From positions 1 through 29,148 of IMG/VR virus record IMGVR_UViG_3300014720_000131: a stretch of DNA of 29,148 nucleotides; one strand, 5' to 3'. The notes under the pieces were generated by a model. The model made no database searches and had not been told where the DNA came from. It saw nothing but the letters and a program-made list of their open reading frames with translations. This DNA is from a virus. The position numbers were made by a program, and so were the translations under genes. Below are positions 1 to 29,148 of this stretch, one piece after another. The number at the start of each line of letters is the position of its first letter. Position 1 is the first letter of the stretch.

Positions 1-102
1 GAGGCCGCGTGCTGTGGAGACTCTGTCCCAGGGCTTGAAAATTTTACCATTGATTTTGATGGTAGTGTATTTGACATGGATATAAGTATCACGTACCGAG
101 CA
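1..102 (-). other. Putative intein, N-terminal fragment, inserted in helicase P-loop
   Basis: Directly after the Walker A lysine the frame reads Cys-Ser-Val-Arg-Asp-Thr-Tyr-Ile and then a strand-rich stretch containing KYTTIKINGK. A Cys at position 1 with Asp-Thr a few residues later followed by hydrophobic residues is the usual block A of inteins. GK|S/T inside P-loops is a well-known intein insertion point in RecA-fold ATPases. A real helicase would have Ser or Thr and an amphipathic helix here. Only 34 residues are visible, so splicing block B, any endonuclease domain, and the C-terminal His-Asn plus +1 Ser/Thr cannot be checked. Confidence 0.65.
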
Positions 103-747
103 TTTTCCTGATCCACTCGCGCCGACAACGCAGAGGAGTTCGCCTTTACCGGATCCGCCATTGAGGATCTCTTTCTTGTCGAGCTCCGGTAGGCGAGTTG
201 GAATGGTGTCACGCTTCAGACGCGTGAATCGAGCGTCCATCTCATTGAAGAAGTCGTGGCCGACGGACGGAGCCGTGCCGACCTGAACAGCCTTCTTGAT
301 CGTCTCTACGATGGACTCATACTTATTGGCCTGCATCTGATCGACAGCAGACTCTAGTGCCTTCTTAAGAGCCTGCTTACGACAGAATTCGAGAGACTTC
401 TCTTTGACATACTGAAGATCACCTGCGTCAGGATTTGACTTCATCCTCTGAAGATAATCGATGATTTGATCGCGTAGAATGACGTCGGTTCCTGACTTCA
501 GGTCATCCTTAATAATTGTGACAAGTAATTGAAGGGTAGGAAATACCTTGTATTTCTTCGAATATGCGAAATACCTGTCAGCCAAAAACTTAAGATAGTT
601 GACCTCGAAGTAGGAGATATCAACAACTTCCATCATTTGTTCGGCGAACTTATGATCGACAAGCAATGCCTGGCACAACTTCTCTTGAAAGGACTTTCCA
701 AATTGACCGAAGGAAACTCCGTTGAGTCTGTTTTCGTTTTCTTGCAT
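1..747 (-). CDS. DnaB/gp41-like replicative helicase, N-terminal part, interrupted by putative intein
   Basis: The frame begins at an ATG that overlaps the stop of the upstream nuclease gene (TAATG) and stays open to the left edge, giving 249 visible residues. Residues 1-190 look like the helical N-terminal domain of phage DnaB/gp41 helicases. A stretch reading PTRLPELDKKEILNGGSGKG then leads into the Walker A motif GASGSGK at residues 209-215, preceded by the strand ELLCVV. This layout fits the hexameric RecA-fold helicase that unwinds the phage replication fork. Instead of the expected Ser/Thr and helix after Lys215, the protein continues with Cys-Ser-Val-Arg-Asp-Thr, which looks like an intein start and is listed separately. 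The 5' nuclease gene directly upstream supports a replication role. The rest of the helicase lies outside the window. I am fairly sure of the RecA-fold helicase and less sure of the exact subfamily. Confidence 0.8.
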   Translation of the reverse strand, partial: MQENENRLNGVSFGQFGKSFQEKLCQALLVDHKFAEQMMEVVDISYFEVNYLKFLADRYFAYSKKYKVFPTLQLLVTIIKDDLKSGTDVILRDQIIDYLQRMKSNPDAGDLQYVKEKSLEFCRKQALKKALESAVDQMQANKYESIVETIKKAVQVGTAPSVGHDFFNEMDARFTRLKRDTIPTRLPELDKKEILNGGSGKGELLCVVGASGSGKCSVRDTYIHVKYTTIKINGKIFKPWDRVSTARGL

Positions 748-1724
748 TATTGATTCTCCGAAGCGAACCTCAGTCCATCGACACATGAGAGATCGTAATA
801 GAACCCCTCATAGTCAAAGTCACTGATCCCTTCCTTCAGTAACAACTTGATGAGTCCCATCTTATTGACAGTCGGTTTAAATGTATCTACAACGTGTTCC
901 ACACGTTTCATCTGATCGCCCGACAACATGCTTCCGTCCAAATGGACGAGCTGCCAGTTCCTATTGACAACATCGACCTCTTCGACGAGACGTTTGAACA
1001 AGACGCCTTTCTGTGTATGGGCGAAATTGATGATGTCTTGTAGAATGATCGTGTCATCGCTTCCAAGCATGGGAAATTTCTTGGCGACGCTTTTGAAACC
1101 AAAACCCTGAACGCCGGGAATGTTGTCAGAATCGTCGCCACAGAGACACTTTGCTAGTGCGAAGTTGTGTGCCTTGATTCGGAACTCCTCGAATAGGTCT
1201 TCATCGGTGATGAACTTCTTTCTATAGAGAGAGTAGATCTTCACTTTAGGACCTAAGAGTTGGTACATGTCCTTGTCGGCAGACACAATGACGGTGTCCT
1301 TGTCTCTGAAGGAACCTCTGACGAGGAATGCGACAATGTCGTCACCTTCACAATCGGAAACGTACACCTGACAGACAGGAACATTCTTTAAAGCACCGAG
1401 GAGAGTCACCAGTTGATGCTGCTTGTTCTCTTCGGTGTCAGGAATGTCGTCCCCGTAAAATCGATTTAACTTACCGGGTTTCCTATTGGCCTTATAATCG
1501 GGATATATCTTACGTCTTCGCTGTGATCCTCCACCTTCCCACGTGACATACACCATAGTTGGATGGTATTCTCTACAGAGTTTTTGCAAAGACTTGAGAA
1601 ATCCTACAGCGCCTCCCATCTGATATCCGTGCGAAGACAACTGAGGATACGCTGCATAAGAACGGAGGAACATATTGAGTCCATCAATCACAAAGATGGG
1701 TCTATCGTCTGACATAGAAGTCAT
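747..1724 (-). CDS. 5'-3' exonuclease, T4 RNase H / FEN-type
   Basis: This 325-residue protein belongs to the FEN/PIN-fold 5' nuclease family, whose T4 member removes RNA primers from lagging strands. The acidic metal-binding residues are visible in order: Asp14 (FVIDGLN), Glu126 with Asp128/Asp129 (SDCEGDDIV), Asp150 and Asp152 (VSADKDMYQLL), and the helix-hairpin-helix region with Asp197, Asp198 and Asp200 (CGDDSDNIPGVQGFG). A Lys/Arg-rich arch segment (QRRRKIYPDYKANRK) follows the first strand. An AAGG about four bases before the ATG supports the first start; a second Met at residue 4 is an alternative. The stop overlaps the helicase start, so the two are probably cotranslated. The length is close to that of T4 RNase H (305 residues). 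Confidence 0.9.
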   Translation of the reverse strand: MTSMSDDRPIFVIDGLNMFLRSYAAYPQLSSHGYQMGGAVGFLKSLQKLCREYHPTMVYVTWEGGGSQRRRKIYPDYKANRKPGKLNRFYGDDIPDTEENKQHQLVTLLGALKNVPVCQVYVSDCEGDDIVAFLVRGSFRDKDTVIVSADKDMYQLLGPKVKIYSLYRKKFITDEDLFEEFRIKAHNFALAKCLCGDDSDNIPGVQGFGFKSVAKKFPMLGSDDTIILQDIINFAHTQKGVLFKRLVEEVDVVNRNWQLVHLDGSMLSGDQMKRVEHVVDTFKPTVNKMGLIKLLLKEGISDFDYEGFYYDLSCVDGLRFASENQ

Positions 1725-1748: not shown

Positions 1749-2108
1749 TCAAGCTAGCACGACATTGCCATACCAGTATTTACCGATGCCCTCACCTACT
1801 TCGAACTTTGCTTCTACTCTCACGACACCGTCACCATACAGTTTTGTCTTGAGGAGTTTGAAATGTTCGAATTCGGTTATAGCCTTGTGGCAATATGTGT
1901 CGAACTCTTTCCCCTTGATCAAGGTGTGACCCTCGGTCAACAACATCAGCTCACACACCTTATGCGGTGCGAAAACTTTGTACTCGGCGATCTTTGCTGA
2001 CCCGAACTTGGCGAAACAATTCTTCGTCAGTTCCCGTTTGCAGTTAAGAATGGCCTCGAGAAGACCATTGACGTCTTCCGAGACCTTCCATGTTACTTCA
2101 GCGTCCAT
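1749..2108 (-). CDS. Hypothetical protein, 119 aa
   Basis: I do not recognise this protein. The start is placed at the ATG whose A is shared with the stop codon of the actin-like gene (TAATG), because a longer frame would need a start inside that gene. It begins MDAEVTWKVSED, is a mixed alpha/beta soluble-looking protein with four cysteines and no CxxC pair, and has no signal peptide or membrane segment. A C-terminal stretch RVEAKFEVGEGIGKYWYGN looks like beta strands. It sits between an actin-like ATPase and the 5' nuclease in the replication block, and tight coupling to the actin-like gene suggests co-expression. No function is assigned. Confidence 0.7.
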   Translation of the reverse strand: MDAEVTWKVSEDVNGLLEAILNCKRELTKNCFAKFGSAKIAEYKVFAPHKVCELMLLTEGHTLIKGKEFDTYCHKAITEFEHFKLLKTKLYGDGVVRVEAKFEVGEGIGKYWYGNVVLA

Positions 2109-3112
2109 TAGAGGATTTGCGATGCGATGAGGCAACCACGGGCGACTGCGTGGAGTGGATCGGAGGCGTGGCGGACTTCCTTAACAGGAAGCGGGAAACC
2201 GTTCTCGACCAGCTTCTTCTCGAAGTGTTTCACGAACCCCTTGGCCTTGGTGGTACCACCGGCGACGACGACAGGCAGGGGATCCTTGAATTTCGGGAGT
2301 GCCTTGTGACCATCCATTGCTGCAGTCAGTTGTTTCGTGGTGTAGTCGATGAGACGATCGTAGTATGTGGCTACCGCAGCGAGGACCTGATTGTCGTTGG
2401 GTTTCGCGATTGTGAAATCGCCCTGCTCTTTTTCGGCCTGCACGATGGAATCGGTCTCACCTGTTGCTACGGCGGCCATGCGGTCGACCCAATCACCAGA
2501 CTTCGTGGTGGAGAACTTAACGACAGGTTCACCGCTCAGCATGACACAAACGTTAACCATACCCGCGCCCCAAGACAGGGCCACACCGGTATAGTCATCG
2601 TCCGCAAGCTCCGAGTAACATAGCGCTTCTGCCTCATTAATGGCCCGAGCTTCATAACCACATTCTTCGAGGACCTTCTTGACGACGTCCTCATGGTAGC
2701 CAACATCAAAATCATCGTCTTCCTGATCTACTGGTTGGGCAGGAACACAGAAGACGAGCTTCTCGCCCTTCTTCGTGGCCTTTCCAGCAACTTCCTTAAG
2801 TATGTAGGACAGGATTCTTCTAGCGTCCTTCTCCTTGGAGGAGACGACACCTCGATACATCGGACGCTTCGCAGAGTCGTTACGCTCCACTGCTTTTTCA
2901 ATGGCATCCTTACCTAGGATGATGTAGGAGCCGTCTGTGTCTTTTACGAAAACTTTTCCGGTGAGGCCCTTTTCGATCATTTTGGAGGCGATCGGAGTCG
3001 TAGGCTTGATCACGTAGAAAGCATCTCTGAAATCCTTATACTCAACGGTACCACCCTCGCCCTCAGATGAGAGGACGATGAATGACGTACCGACATCTAA
3101 ACCTTTTGCCAT
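2108..3112 (-). CDS. Actin-like ATPase (ParM/MreB/Hsp70 fold)
   Basis: The 334-residue product has the spaced motifs of the actin superfamily. A phosphate-1 loop lies at the very N-terminus (KGLDVGTSFIVLS), a phosphate-2-like loop near the middle (ALSWGAGMVNVCVM, with Ser-Trp-Gly-Ala-Gly instead of Asp-x-Gly-x-Gly), and an adenosine motif near the C-terminus (PVVVAGGTTKAKGF). A connect-like helix precedes phosphate-2 (ARAINEAEALCYSEL), and a Cys/Ala-rich C-terminal helix (DPLHAVARGCLIASQIL) resembles connect-2. Known members are filament-forming ATPases used for plasmid segregation or cell shape, or Hsp70-type chaperones; a few phages carry one. It lies amid replication genes and is coupled to the small gene downstream. 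The altered phosphate-2 loop leaves ATPase activity and polymerisation unproven. The fold is fairly certain and the role unknown. Confidence 0.75.
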   Translation of the reverse strand: MAKGLDVGTSFIVLSSEGEGGTVEYKDFRDAFYVIKPTTPIASKMIEKGLTGKVFVKDTDGSYIILGKDAIEKAVERNDSAKRPMYRGVVSSKEKDARRILSYILKEVAGKATKKGEKLVFCVPAQPVDQEDDDFDVGYHEDVVKKVLEECGYEARAINEAEALCYSELADDDYTGVALSWGAGMVNVCVMLSGEPVVKFSTTKSGDWVDRMAAVATGETDSIVQAEKEQGDFTIAKPNDNQVLAAVATYYDRLIDYTTKQLTAAMDGHKALPKFKDPLPVVVAGGTTKAKGFVKHFEKKLVENGFPLPVKEVRHASDPLHAVARGCLIASQIL

Positions 3113-22525: not shown

Positions 22526-23425
22526 TTAAAAAGAGCAAATAAAAGGATGAGTCTTTTCTGTCCATATTTCAAACAACATACCGATGCTAGTTGAAAAATT
22601 TCTAGCTGCATTAAATTTTGCAATGTTTTTAGGATCCTTTGTGTGACAGCTTGGCTTAATTTCAATTAATGTCTTTTTACCGCTTGCATACTCAACCAAA
22701 CAATCAATGACATAATTCCTAATTTTACCGTCATACTCATATTGAATCCGATGTGGTTCCATTTCGTATGAAATGATATCATCATTGTTCTCAAAGTAGA
22801 GGACGGCATTAAGCTCGAACAAAGACCTGTAATAGACAGCCTTTGTCGATTTCTTTGGATTCTCAAAGTAGCCATGGACTCGAGTTGCCTTTGTCAACAT
22901 TCCGTTTTTAACGCACTCAGCCTGTCTCAAACTTTGTTTTGCCCTGTTGTCTTCATTAGACCAATAGGTCTGCATTTGCTCTTTTATTTTTGCCTTGTGA
23001 TCATCAGACTTTTTCTTGCCGGAGAGAGAGTCTGAGATCTTCTTCGCTCTTTCAGGAGTATTCATCTTCTTCACTATCGAAGCAATTCTTGGATCTTCTT
23101 TCGTCAATCCAGCACACCAGCCTTTTATCTCTCCTCTTTCCCACATTTCTTTGCGAGTCTTAAGGCTCTTTTCTTTGGCCAACTCATTGTTGCCCCAGTT
23201 GTTGTTGATCTTTGCTGCGTGTCCCCATGCGTATTCAGAATATCCTCGTAGAGGACCGTGAAACTTGGTTGCAGTTCCACATCCACATTTGCATGTAGGT
23301 TTGACACCCTTTAGCACAACTTCGATATAAAGATCTTCACTGCTTACATCATGCTTCTTTGAGGCATGAATTCTAAGCGAATTCATATTGTTAATTTCAT
23401 AATCACATTTTGGACACTTAAACAT
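22526..23425 (-). CDS. Free-standing homing endonuclease, zinc finger + NUMOD3-like + PD-(D/E)XK
   Basis: The 299-residue protein has a C2H2-like finger (Cys4, Cys7, His20, His25), a second Cys-rich module of the kind found in phage endonucleases (CKCGCGT...GH, 45-69), and a NUMOD3-like DNA-binding region (about 100-165, ERAKKISDSLSGKKKSDDHK). The C-terminal nuclease domain of PD-(D/E)XK type shows YRSLFE (Glu204), Asp241 (YVIDCLVEY), and Glu255-x-Lys257 (LIEIKPS). Such enzymes cut cognate DNA and spread their own gene. The second Met is chosen as start because GGAGG lies 5-6 bases before it; a first Met four codons earlier overlaps that site. Codon use is more AT-rich than in the tail genes, consistent with transfer. 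It sits between the tail tube gene and the convergent cassette. Confidence 0.82.
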   Translation of the reverse strand: MFKCPKCDYEINNMNSLRIHASKKHDVSSEDLYIEVVLKGVKPTCKCGCGTATKFHGPLRGYSEYAWGHAAKINNNWGNNELAKEKSLKTRKEMWERGEIKGWCAGLTKEDPRIASIVKKMNTPERAKKISDSLSGKKKSDDHKAKIKEQMQTYWSNEDNRAKQSLRQAECVKNGMLTKATRVHGYFENPKKSTKAVYYRSLFELNAVLYFENNDDIISYEMEPHRIQYEYDGKIRNYVIDCLVEYASGKKTLIEIKPSCHTKDPKNIAKFNAARNFSTSIGMLFEIWTEKTHPFICSF

Positions 23426-23430
23426 AAAAA

Positions 23431-23455
23431 CCTCCACAGGTTAATCCCATGGAGG
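23431..23455 (-). promoter_or_regulatory. Hairpin sequestering the homing endonuclease ribosome site
   Basis: On the minus strand CCTCCA (from plus 23455-23450) pairs with TGGAGG (from 23436-23431). Two further GG/CC pairs inside the loop make a stem of eight pairs with a small internal mismatch. The right arm contains the GGAGG ribosome site, 5-6 bases before the chosen ATG. Folding would hide it from ribosomes. T4 homing endonuclease genes such as I-TevI are known to be repressed this way. Confidence 0.65.
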
Positions 23456-24427: not shown

Positions 24428-27400
24428 TCACTGTACTTGGGTAAGGTTGTTGGCGACCACGAAGTCGAGCGACACGAACTCGATGGTCTTGGTGGGCTGC
24501 ACGAATATCTTACCGCGTATCGTGTTGTTTTCAATGTCCGTCTGCGTCGTCGTTGACGAGTCGATGACGACACGGAACCTCTCGAGTCCTGCGAGTGCCT
24601 GGATCCTTTGGAGGCGTGGTGTGACGGCCGCCGAGAAGCGGGCGAGGGTGGCCTCACGGTTGGCCTCGAAGAGGATCGTCTGGGCGATCTCGCGGACCTG
24701 ACGACGGATGTCGATGAGGAGGCGGCGAACGTTGACGCGATCGAGGGCCGAAGCGGCCGTCTGCAACGTCTTCTGACCCCACACCACGATGCCACCGCGT
24801 GGGTTGGTGCCGCTGCGGGCGGCGCCTGGGAAGGCGACGATGGGGTTGATGGAGTTGTCGTAGAGCTTGTCCATGTCGGCCTGTGCCAACCTGACGCGGG
24901 GCTCGAGGGCGACCTCGGGGAGAGCTCCACGCGAGAAGCCCGCGGGGGCGAACCATGGGTGACCGACGGAGTCGTTGAGCGCCAAGGCACCGAGGACGAG
25001 GACCGAAGGCGGCACGTTCATGTTGGTTCCCTTGGGGTCACGGTAGAGGACGTCTGGGAAGTAGGCCGCGGCGAAGGACGAGTCGACGGAGCGGTTGACG
25101 AACTGGTTCATCGAGTTGGTGACGGACGGCAGCTGCGAATCGAGCTTCACTTCAGATCCATTCTCGTCGAGCTGCTCGATGTCCATGATGTAAAGGGCGT
25201 CGAAGCGTTCCTCCACAGCGAGGGTCGCTGCGTCTGTGACGATCGGCTCACGGATGCCTGGGATGGCGAGGAGCTGAATGTCGACGTTGGTCGTGTTCTT
25301 CATCACGTCGAGGGCCTTGAGGTATGTACGGACGTTGGGTCCGTTCTGAAGCCCACGGCCTGCGGCAGCGTCCATGTCAGACGACACGGCGTTGTTGTTG
25401 ATCTCGGACTCGTCGGTGTTGAAGACGTTGACGCCGTCGAAACCGCCCTGTATCAGGAAGGTGAACTTGGCGTACTGCTTGTTTCCTGGGATGTCGTCGA
25501 CCTTGAAGGCACGAAGCTTCGTCTCGTCGCCGGAGCTGTCGGCCGCTATCTCGGTGAGGTTCTTGTTGCCGACGCTACCGTTTCTGACGTAGACAGCCTT
25601 GGCCCACTTGGATGGGTCCGCGAGGCCGTTAGATCCGGTGACGACCTGGATGTTCTCGAGTGAGAAGAAGTTGTTGCAGAATGCGTCGGCATCGATGACG
25701 CCCCAGGCTGCAGAAGAAGCCTGACCATCGTTGCTGCCCGTCACAAACTTGGCGGTACCGACTGCGAAGTTCGGGAAGTACTTGGCGAATGCCTTCAGCG
25801 AGTTGTTTGGCAACACGCTGTCGTTCTGCTTGTTGACTGTCGATGGATGCTCGAACTGAACGCCCCAGTAGAAGCGTGAGTTGACCTGCTCCACAGCAGA
25901 CCAACGATCCATGTTGGTGATCTTGCCACGCAAAGGAAGCGGAGGAGTGACGGCCCTGTTCGTTGGGCTGAATGTCGTGGAGGCCATGGCGGCCAACTCG
26001 AACCCACCGAAACCGGCGAGTGGAGCAGATCCGGAGGTGACGAGGTGGTCGATGCCTCTGAAGCCCATTGGGAGCGCCTCGGGATCGACGTATCCGTTCT
26101 CGACGTCTGCATGGACTTCCACTCTGACGTAGTTGGATCTGTTCTCGTAGTTACCCTCGACGACGAGCTTCTGCTCCGATTCCTGACGGTCGAAGTCGAA
26201 GTATGCGTAGACGTCACCGATGACCTTGGCGATGTAGCGATCAGACGTTGGATCGAGGTTGACACCACGATAGATCTCATTGGGGAGGTTCTTCTTGTCC
26301 TGGTCCCTGTCGGTCCAGTCGCGGAGGACGACGTCGAAGGAGCCATACTTGTTGAGTGGATCGGTCGAGACGGTGATGTTCTCGACAGAGACCTTGAAAC
26401 GTGTCGAATTGCCTGCACCGTCGTCGAGGGCATGCAGTCTGAAGAGGTTCTGCGACTTTCCACCGAACTTCTGTGAGACGACCCACGGAGACTTAGCGTG
26501 ACCAAAGCGATCTTCGAATGTCTCGTAGTCAGGTACGGTGGCGCTGCCGACGTGACGACCCAGCGAAGAGGTCACCAAGAACGCAGATGGTTCACCATAG
26601 CTGTTGACGGCAGAACCGCTGGCTGTCGATATGAGACCTGAACCGGTGATGACTGCGAGGGTGGGGTGGACTTCCCAGTCAGCGTAGAGATAGTGGCCGG
26701 CCTCTTGAAGCTTCAAGGGGTCGGTGTTGAACATCTTGCCGAAGTAGTTGTTGGATGTAGGATCGAAGGATGCGACGACGTAGTTGGGATAACGTGGATC
26801 GAGACCCTTGTGACCGTTGAGGTACATCGTGAACTCTTGCTTCGTCTGTCCCGTGCTGGTCGTGAGGACGACGGAACCGAGCGAGGCGCCGCGGACCGAT
26901 GAATGTCCGTCGCGACCGATGGCTGTCGAAGCAGGAACTGCACTGTTAATGCCAGTCACAGACGATGAAAGTGTCAGGAGGACTCCCGAAGGAGCCATGA
27001 CGACACCTCTGACGATGGGGAGTGCTGTCGTCGATCCAGGGGTCACCGAACCAGGTCCTTGAAGACCTGCGTCGCTGAAGTACGTGGAACCTACAGACTC
27101 CGACATAAAACAACCGAGGAAGTAGAGACGACCGAGAGCACCATCGGAAGAAGCGTTCGTGTTCGACGTGATGTAACCGGTAGCAGAGCTGGGCTGCTGC
27201 TCACCGACGACGAATCCTGCCGACGTGACAGAACCGTCTGCGTTACGCTCACGACCGTCGCCGACGCCGAGGACCTTCAAGTAAGTGACAGACTGCGCAT
27301 TACGCAGCCACTCGACGACGGCAAGGGGTCCAAATTTCTTGCCGTCTGTCTGTCCGAACTTAGAGTACCAATCAGACAAGTTACCGACAGTGATTGGGAC

Positions 27401-27529
27401 GAACGCCGGACCCTTTAAAGAGGTTCCCACGATTCCGGCAGGTACGCCGACAGGCTGTTGCGTGGTTGGACCCGAGATGTCAATCTCTCTTGCCGTGACG
27501 CCTGCGCTTCCAAATTTCAGTTGTGCCAT
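24428..27529 (-). CDS. Tail sheath protein, 1033 aa
   Basis: The product is a contractile tail sheath protein. The N-terminus (FGSAGVTAREIDISGPTTQQ, GVPAGIVGTSLKGPAFVPIT, VGNLSDWYSKFGQTDGKKFG) and the C-terminus (LDRVNVRRLLIDIRRQVREI, then RIQALAGLERFRVVIDSSTT and GKIFVQPTKTIEFVSLDFVV) match the gp18/sheath family end domains that form the handshake between subunits. At 1033 residues it is much longer than T4 gp18 (659); the middle holds extra outer domains that would project from the tail surface. GGGAGCAG before the ATG is a strong ribosome site. The C-terminal half is clearly related to the neighbouring second sheath-like gene. Confidence 0.92.
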   Translation of the reverse strand: MAQLKFGSAGVTAREIDISGPTTQQPVGVPAGIVGTSLKGPAFVPITVGNLSDWYSKFGQTDGKKFGPLAVVEWLRNAQSVTYLKVLGVGDGRERNADGSVTSAGFVVGEQQPSSATGYITSNTNASSDGALGRLYFLGCFMSESVGSTYFSDAGLQGPGSVTPGSTTALPIVRGVVMAPSGVLLTLSSSVTGINSAVPASTAIGRDGHSSVRGASLGSVVLTTSTGQTKQEFTMYLNGHKGLDPRYPNYVVASFDPTSNNYFGKMFNTDPLKLQEAGHYLYADWEVHPTLAVITGSGLISTASGSAVNSYGEPSAFLVTSSLGRHVGSATVPDYETFEDRFGHAKSPWVVSQKFGGKSQNLFRLHALDDGAGNSTRFKVSVENITVSTDPLNKYGSFDVVLRDWTDRDQDKKNLPNEIYRGVNLDPTSDRYIAKVIGDVYAYFDFDRQESEQKLVVEGNYENRSNYVRVEVHADVENGYVDPEALPMGFRGIDHLVTSGSAPLAGFGGFELAAMASTTFSPTNRAVTPPLPLRGKITNMDRWSAVEQVNSRFYWGVQFEHPSTVNKQNDSVLPNNSLKAFAKYFPNFAVGTAKFVTGSNDGQASSAAWGVIDADAFCNNFFSLENIQVVTGSNGLADPSKWAKAVYVRNGSVGNKNLTEIAADSSGDETKLRAFKVDDIPGNKQYAKFTFLIQGGFDGVNVFNTDESEINNNAVSSDMDAAAGRGLQNGPNVRTYLKALDVMKNTTNVDIQLLAIPGIREPIVTDAATLAVEERFDALYIMDIEQLDENGSEVKLDSQLPSVTNSMNQFVNRSVDSSFAAAYFPDVLYRDPKGTNMNVPPSVLVLGALALNDSVGHPWFAPAGFSRGALPEVALEPRVRLAQADMDKLYDNSINPIVAFPGAARSGTNPRGGIVVWGQKTLQTAASALDRVNVRRLLIDIRRQVREIAQTILFEANREATLARFSAAVTPRLQRIQALAGLERFRVVIDSSTTTQTDIENNTIRGKIFVQPTKTIEFVSLDFVVANNLTQVQ

Positions 27530-27576: not shown

Positions 27577-29148
27577 TCAGACGAATTGCACGCCGCTATT
27601 TGTGATGATGAAGTCGATAGCGATGTATTCCACCACACGGGTTGGAACCACGACGATTCGACCATTGAGTCTGTTGAGGTCGACGTCTTCCACCGTGTTA
27701 TTCGACTCGTTCATCACGACCTGGAACGCTTCGACACCGGCCTGGGCCTGGATGAGACCGAGCTGGAATGAAGCGTCAGCAACGAATTTGTTACGAACTG
27801 CAGGTGTATTCTGCTCGAATACCAACCTCTGTGCAATTCCAACGATTATTCTCTTGATCTCCAGCATCAACCTGCGTACGTTGACGCGGTCGAGGGCTGA
27901 CTTGTTTATCTGTAGCGTCTTCTGTCCGTAGATCACGTAGCCCAACCTCGGGAAGGAGGCGATGGGATTGATGCGTGATTCGTAGAGACGATCCTTGTCT
28001 GCTCCACCGAGGCGGACCGTGACGTTGGAGACGAAGTCGAGTGCTGCACGATTGAAGCCGGCGGGCGCAAACCAAGGATACGTGACCCTGTCATTGAAGG
28101 CAAGGGCGCCGACGGCCGGGACCGAAGCGGGGACCTTGACACGACGGCGGTTCGTTGCGTCGTCGATGAAGACGTCAGGGTAGTAGACAGCTGCGTAGTT
28201 GTTGTCGATCGAGCGGCCGTCGAACTGAGCGGCCGTCGTCGTGACGTTCGGCTTCGCTGCCGAGTTGTCATAGAGTCTGTTGCCATCGTCGTCGTAGGAT
28301 GGAATGTCCATGACGTACATCGCCAATCCGTAGTCGCGGACCTTTGCCATCGTCTGATCGGTGATGTAAGGTTCACGGATACCCGGGATGGTGAGGATGT
28401 TGTTGTTGGCCTCGAGAGGATTCGTGAGGATGTCGACGGCCGTCAAGTAGGATGCGACGCCGTTGTTGCTCGTCGCTCTGCCCGATGGGTTGGTTGCGAA
28501 ACCGCTGATCGAGTTGCTCGTCGAGGCACCGCCCGATGTGCCTGCATCGAATGAGACCGACTTATCGTTGAGGCGACGTGCGTCTCTGTCAAGGAAGTTG
28601 GTGCCGTCGAAACCACCACACATGAAGTTGGTGAACTTGGCATACGACGAGAACCTATTGAATGTCGAAGCGGGTGCTGTCGAAAGAAGAGACGCGAAGG
28701 TGAGTCTTCTGCGAGAGTTCTCTGTCCACGTGTAATCGGTGGCGTCGAGCGTCGCGTTCCTGATGTACGCTGCTTCCTTCATGTGATCGTTGACAGAGCT
28801 GGTGAGATCCGTCAGCGATGCGTTGAACAGCGCGACCTTCGCAAGAGTGAACTTGTTGTTGTGGGTCGTGTCAGCCTTGGAACCAGAGACGAGGGCGTCG
28901 AGCTTCTCTATTCCGACGAACTTGGTGAAGGACTCGAGGAGAGAGTTCTTCTCGGCGACGACGTTGGGGTTGAGGACATCATTGGATGTCGGATCCGACG
29001 ATGTCGAAGCTCTCTCGAACTTGACGCCCCAGTAGTAGGAGACGTTGGCCTGTTCGGATGGACCTGGTTGACCTGAGAACGTCTGTGAGCCTGTGATCTC
29101 ACCGCGGGTGACCTTGAACCTGAAGGGAACAGGCGGAAGGAACGATCC
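27577..29148 (-). CDS. Second tail sheath-like protein, C-terminal part, runs off right edge
   Basis: The frame is open across the right edge, showing 523 residues up to the stop. The C-terminal domain (SALDRVNVRRLMLEIKRIIV, LIQAQAGVEAFQVVMNESNN, GRIVVVPTRVVEYIAIDFII) and the domain before it (NILTIPGIREPYITDQTMAK, YPWFAPAGFNRAALDFVS) match the neighbouring sheath almost segment by segment, and the visible left part (NVSYYWGVKFERAS) matches the sheath's NSRFYWGVQFEHPS. It is therefore a tandem paralogue of the sheath. It may form a mixed sheath or a specialised terminal ring. The start and N-terminus are outside the window. Confidence 0.88.
   Translation of the reverse strand, partial: GSFLPPVPFRFKVTRGEITGSQTFSGQPGPSEQANVSYYWGVKFERASTSSDPTSNDVLNPNVVAEKNSLLESFTKFVGIEKLDALVSGSKADTTHNNKFTLAKVALFNASLTDLTSSVNDHMKEAAYIRNATLDATDYTWTENSRRRLTFASLLSTAPASTFNRFSSYAKFTNFMCGGFDGTNFLDRDARRLNDKSVSFDAGTSGGASTSNSISGFATNPSGRATSNNGVASYLTAVDILTNPLEANNNILTIPGIREPYITDQTMAKVRDYGLAMYVMDIPSYDDDGNRLYDNSAAKPNVTTTAAQFDGRSIDNNYAAVYYPDVFIDDATNRRRVKVPASVPAVGALAFNDRVTYPWFAPAGFNRAALDFVSNVTVRLGGADKDRLYESRINPIASFPRLGYVIYGQKTLQINKSALDRVNVRRLMLEIKRIIVGIAQRLVFEQNTPAVRNKFVADASFQLGLIQAQAGVEAFQVVMNESNNTVEDVDLNRLNGRIVVVPTRVVEYIAIDFIITNSGVQFV

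Follow-up and report, generated by a model that had tools for sequence, protein, structure and literature searches.

The question raised by this locus is what interrupts a replicative helicase gene inside its Walker A motif, and whether the interruption belongs to a mobile element. The window analysed, which is a virus fragment of 29,148 bases starting at base 1, carries on its minus strand an open frame (786..1) that runs off base 1, and nothing can be read to the left of this base because the record is a fragment beginning there. In translation, the frame reads ELDKKEILNGGSGKGELLCVVGASGSGK followed directly by CSVRDTYIHVKYTTIKINGKIFKPWDRVSTARGL (in a longer form of the same reading, GGSGKGELLCVVGASGSGK followed by CSVRDTYIHVKYTTIKINGKIFKPWDRVSTARGL). 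GASGSGK is thus continued by CSVRDTYIHVKY at the position where GASGSGK/SHWLTMIG is expected of an uninterrupted helicase, and the record ends after 34 residues of the inserted block. The Cys codon occupies 102..100, so positions 1-102 are exactly the intein part (Table 1). Judged from sequence matches, the interrupted host protein is a gp41/DnaB-like replicative helicase: the first 228 residues of the frame match the DnaB-like helicase family phrog_19 (E 3e-19), the corresponding half in the related contig L086 matches the gp41 helicases of T4-like phages in tblastn, and DnaB_C matches the C-terminal half of L086 at 1e-14. The neighbouring genes encode a 5'-3' exonuclease, dUTPase, UvsX, SSB and DNA polymerase. 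Beside these replication genes lies a phage actin homologue of the Volactin family (2108-3112, minus strand; PF25216, E 1.3e-67). Two tandem tail-sheath-like genes (24428-27529 and 27577-29148, minus strand), the first of which is unusually long at 1033 aa, were also observed in the window.

Table 1. Features of the interrupted helicase gene in the window
Feature	Position	Strand	Basis
N-terminal intein fragment, first 34 residues (47 in relatives), CSVRDTYIHVKYTTIKINGKIFKPWDRVSTARGL	1..102	-	Translation; alignment to 19 relatives with 47-residue N-fragments; Cys1 conserved in all; cut by the record end
Walker A / P-loop GASGSGK of the helicase	103..123	-	Translation and relatives; 21 nt left of the insertion identical in the window and L002 (putative left co-conversion tract); same 21-nt boundary in L105/L094 and L094/L095
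N-terminal half of gp41/DnaB-like replicative helicase (N-extein)	103..747	-	phrog_19, tblastn; ATG most likely at 747, ORF readable from 786
123-nt tract 100% identical to L002	1..123	-	Pair 85.4% identical over 4.3 kb; same end base in both contigs

The interruption of the helicase after GASGSGK by a block opening with Cys, as read in the initial annotation, was confirmed by translation and by the relatives. The junction is not due to chance: of the 80 best viral relatives, 75 contain GSGK/SH[WF]L[TV]M[IL]GANAL or a very near sequence, and the Cys-block stands at exactly this point in the remaining five. After scans with alignments of the N- and C-fragments, 21 distinct contigs were obtained with the same Cys-block at GK/S and a readable continuation. 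Three further records with this block are cut short, namely, the window, L002 and L105, and a search for a record continuing the window revealed no contig overlapping its end besides L002, which stops at the same base.

The nature of the block can be read in the relatives and not in the window itself, where the missing part is unreadable; the 34-residue fragment alone matched no intein HMM. Cys1, the nucleophile of a class 1 intein, is present in the window and in all relatives. The C-terminal intein part of the relatives (IntC) contains block B (C/A-x-x-H), block F (..L[CYF]D[LMIF]QV), a terminal ..SHN and Ser+1, and residues H93, D143, H160 and N161, which lie beyond the readable part of the window, are invariant in the alignment of the relatives (A8). 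The IntC profile placed gp41-1 (6qaz, 4.4e-9), NrdJ-1 (3.6e-8) and VidaL (2e-6) at the top of the PDB list, and TIGR01443 intein_Cterm (NCBI) scored above its cut-off in L086 and L106, with DnaB_C behind it. The AF2 model of the unsplit L106 intein, for which the input alignment consisted of split fragments, was obtained with a pLDDT of 93.5 and a pTM of 0.84; it has the Hint fold, with Z 19-20 against solved inteins over residues 1-191, and its best Foldseek match is VidaL (E 1.7e-8). By sequence and predicted fold, the element of the relatives is a class 1 intein, and the proposal of an intein at the GK/S point of the P-loop was thus upheld, including the helicase C half that resumes behind it.

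In most of the relatives, this intein is divided between two genes. The N-terminal fragment (IntN) is exactly 47 residues long and is followed by a stop, mostly after a conserved D-E-L-x, in 19 of the 21 readable relatives (L006, L045, L047, L054, L084, L086, L087, L090, L094, L095, L096, L100, L101, L103, L112, L113, L114, L115 and L116), and in the same 19 the two halves lie in separate ORFs, each fused to one extein. The second ORF, which starts with M[LP]xI... and consists of an IntC of 140-161 aa and the helicase C half, was found in 18 of these 19 split relatives, L054 being cut short and the only one without readable IntC; in all 18, IntC ends with SHN, and SH[FY]L and the helicase C half follow. 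An unsplit intein occupies the same site in the other two contigs: it is complete in L106 (183-kb contig) and partial in L104, where it is unsplit as far as readable. In the latter (L104:6001-6415), the sequence VYARDLSTDE resembles the end of a split IntN fused with IntC, so that this copy is possibly a re-fused split intein. Relatives of IntC were absent from 84,980 bacterial and archaeal genomes; cultured phages possess helicase homologues, and none of their best matches listed covers the intein.

The intein proposed in the initial annotation was supported by way of the relatives, but the annotation had missed that the intein is split in nearly all of them. It had also taken a quick end of the frame left of base 1 as speaking against an intein, an expectation that would have rejected a correct finding because the frames of the relatives end 13 codons on. 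The window phage could still carry the same intein in contiguous, cis-splicing form, as L106 and L104 do; its record ends before the diagnostic stop, and the 34 visible residues fit the split and unsplit forms alike. However, the closest readable IntN relatives of the window, L086 and L006 (76% and 68% identity over 34 aa), are both split, like the large majority of the readable relatives, and a contiguous copy in the window is unlikely. By analogy with these relatives, the window's own copy is most likely split.

Between the two halves, an open ORF of about 300-400 codons is located in 11 relatives (L047, L086, L094, L095, L096, L100, L103, L112, L114, L115 and L116). The ORF is broken in L006 and L113, and only remnants, with spacers of 152, 63, 366, 268 and 206 nt, are found in L045, L084, L087, L090 and L101, respectively. 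In all three of these endonuclease ORFs that were tested, NUMOD3 (E 1.4e-9) scored above its cut-off; a Vsr-like match (TIGR00632 vsr) was obtained at 1e-4 and 4e-5, below the curated cut-off, and zinc-finger and DUF559 signals were also detected. The pairwise pN/pS of the ORF (0.27-0.59) agrees with a protein under selection. At each of its ends, the ORF overlaps the intein: in L047, its ATG lies within GATGAAC, which encodes D-E-L, and the final codons of the ORF, AAT GCT TAC AAT CGA, are read as ATG CTT ACA ATC GA in the IntC frame. In L086 and L087, ACG stands instead of ATG at the usual endonuclease start. Since the split persists where the endonuclease ORF has been lost, trans-splicing would be enough to keep the helicase working.

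When the endonucleases of L094 and L096 were compared by eye, their N-terminal parts were alike, and the nuclease region of L094 resembled that of L047 and not that of L096, giving a mosaic appearance. The window itself contains an endonuclease-like ORF just beyond the tail tube gene (22526-23437, minus strand), with a TnsA-like N domain (5e-14), a zinc-finger start and a match to the endonuclease family phrog_15427. From its sequence, it looks like an independent free-standing homing endonuclease; a role of this ORF in serving the helicase intein was considered and set aside, as no link was found.

A single polypeptide would nevertheless result if the stop and the inner ORF were part of a group I/II intron, or if they were bypassed by readthrough or frameshift. 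Phage introns with similar endonucleases exist (PMC12350094), and IntC is in frame or out of frame, varying by locus. At the same time, Rfam revealed no intron between the halves in eight loci, and the shortest spacers, those of L084 and L045, are too short for group I/II introns. In L084, readthrough is further opposed by another in-frame stop shortly ahead of the IntC start; IntC also possesses an ATG of its own, which an AGGA-like site often precedes. So, the production of one polypeptide by any of these routes is highly improbable, and two separately translated halves are the preferred reading. A group I intron (RF00028, 79 bits) was observed elsewhere on one intein-bearing contig (L006:1394-1809).

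The initial annotation conjectured that the insertion could delay replication or mark a mobile element. The second of these suggestions was supported: the relatives carry the homing-endonuclease ORF, and diverged phages share identical intein DNA. The tract shared by the window and L002 comprises 102 nt of intein and 21 nt of Walker A sequence, and L105 and L094, which are 89% identical, share a terminal identical tract of 126 nt, of which 21 nt lie left of the insertion. Other identical runs of 104 and 107 nt occur in the window/L002 and L105/L094 pairs, and the 123-nt identity alone is therefore suggestive and weaker than a uniform-rate (simple binomial) estimate would make it. A stronger case for homing is the pair L094/L095 from different metagenomes, in which the flanks differ by about 10% and a 1.94-kb block (L094 1721-3656) has 7 mismatches; this near-identical block begins 21 nt left of the intein, takes in the endonuclease and IntC and ends about 220 nt past IntC. 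When L113 is compared with L114/L115, the identity of the intein (0.79-0.84) exceeds that of the flanks (0.73-0.76), the usual trend being the opposite. Moreover, the identity at third codon positions between the window and intein-free relatives is 0.30 in the last 60 nt and 0.5-0.7 farther away, and in intein-free pairs no such third-position drop was found on average. These sequence patterns indicate recent homing between phages, with a probable short left and long right co-conversion tract. That a chance open frame or an assembly chimaera merely truncated the helicase or joined it to foreign sequence has a nearly negligible probability, even though the feature is terminal in a fragment record and the break falls at nearly one position in three contigs (the window and L002 at the same base): for the relatives, this was rejected by the same conserved junction in about two dozen contigs, two of them long (L086, 162 kb, and L106), and the shared break is what a graph assembler (k near 127) would give on meeting an element with 123-126 identical nt in diverged genomes.

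Loci of gp41 helicases, such as gp41-1 and gp41-8, are reportedly among the fractured genes. According to Dassa et al. (2009, NAR 37:2560), as cited in PMC12350094 and PMC13014065, fractured genes are split inteins with a free-standing EDxHD/Vsr homing endonuclease (HEN) between the halves. The loci of the relatives are like them in the phage-type helicase, the split intein, the putative Vsr-like endonuclease between the halves and the best match of the IntC profile, which is to gp41-1. The P-loop insertion also has precedents. DnaBi1 of Mycobacterium smegmatis (site b, PMC6195587) likewise interrupts a DnaB-family helicase at the P-loop, whose Ser is the +1 residue, but it is a class 3, cis-splicing mini-intein without HEN, whereas the intein considered here is a Cys1 class 1 phage intein, HEN-associated and split in most relatives. 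The TerL1-a inteins of mycobacteriophages (PMC5050341) share the "classic" P-loop insertion between Lys and Thr/Ser of a phage ATPase and the phage-to-phage spread, but they reside in a different gene, and in the helicase it is a HEN gene of its own that divides the intein. Phage helicases with a split intein and a free-standing Vsr-like HEN are already known, as is insertion in the P-loop; to the extent that this could be checked, the new features are the break after 47 residues, the endonuclease frame overlapping the intein on both sides, and the succession of states found at a single site. Among the relatives, L087 has a second intein (intein_Nterm above its cut-off) in the neighbouring ribonucleotide reductase gene (L087:4363-6500), whose halves are separated by an ORF in another frame, so that two fractured genes, helicase and ribonucleotide reductase, stand side by side. 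Downstream ribonucleotide reductase genes with intein-like starts at different points (CITGDSL.. and CFEGSTL..) were also observed in L112 (5134-8152) and L113 (5165-6049).

Canonical split inteins have an IntN of about 100-130 aa and an IntC of 35-50 aa (PMC13014065), in contrast to the break near the N end and the 47-aa IntN and 140-161-aa IntC of the present relatives. In the known natural atypical splits, the break follows strand 2 (S1) or helix 1 (S2), and IntN is 15-37 aa long (PMC13014065, PMC11766414); examples are VidaL (16) and PolB16 (15) for S1 and AceL-TerL (25) and GOS-TerL (37 aa) for S2 (PMC13014065). These four resemble the helicase intein in the short IntN and long IntC, VidaL being both its best Foldseek and a strong profile match. 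However, the IntN length in all 19 of 19 split relatives falls outside both the 15-37 and the 100-130 aa ranges (PMC13014065), the break is situated between strand 2 and helix 1, and some 30 additional residues (KINGxxYKPWDRxxTxRG...) are present in IntN. In the L106 model, strands are located at 7-17, 20-22 and 38-47, and helix 1 at 48-54. According to our interpretation of sequence and model, IntN would end directly behind the strand that precedes helix 1, and IntC would open with a replacement of that strand, the register, as we read the alignment, being HIVEARNTVERKVQMGELF in L106 against MLTIEYSDVEEKIKIGDLF.

Taken together, the window very probably contains the start of a class 1, naturally split intein at the Walker A Lys/Ser of the helicase, in a fractured gene that would serve as a homing cassette. 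The predicted gene layout is helicase-N with IntN (47 aa, stop), a Vsr-like/NUMOD3 endonuclease ORF, either intact or decayed, and IntC (140-161 aa) with helicase-C. IntN and IntC produced from the two ORFs would associate into one Hint domain, in which Cys1 would attack and Asn cyclise, with GSGK being joined to SHWL, so that the ATP site would exist only after trans-splicing. In a co-infecting phage whose helicase gene is free of the intein, the endonuclease would cut this gene close to the P-loop codons; repair would copy the whole IntN-HEN-IntC cassette along with about 21 nt of left and 220-270 nt of right flank. Both splicing and cleavage presumably occur.

As to the origin of the split, there is about an even chance that an out-of-frame endonuclease gene landed in a contiguous intein and divided it at an unreported site. 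The start codon of the endonuclease (in GATGAAC) would then have become part of the conserved D-E-L at the end of IntN, and its final codons (..NAYNR), read in another frame, the MLTIE with which IntC starts, with a beta-strand in both halves, and the site would keep unsplit, split with HEN and split with decayed HEN forms, as well as the possibly re-fused L104.

The significance of the locus is that unsplit, split with endonuclease and split without endonuclease forms occur at one codon of an essential gene, the origin of split inteins being rarely visible at one site, and that homing tracts are readable in the DNA of relatives. The 18 fully readable split pairs are candidate split inteins with an unusual break for protein ligation work. 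A replicative helicase that would exist only after the joining of two proteins is a testable case for conditional splicing. If the proposed origin is true, these phages would document, in a natural series, the rise and persistence of split inteins and would add a new split-intein family.
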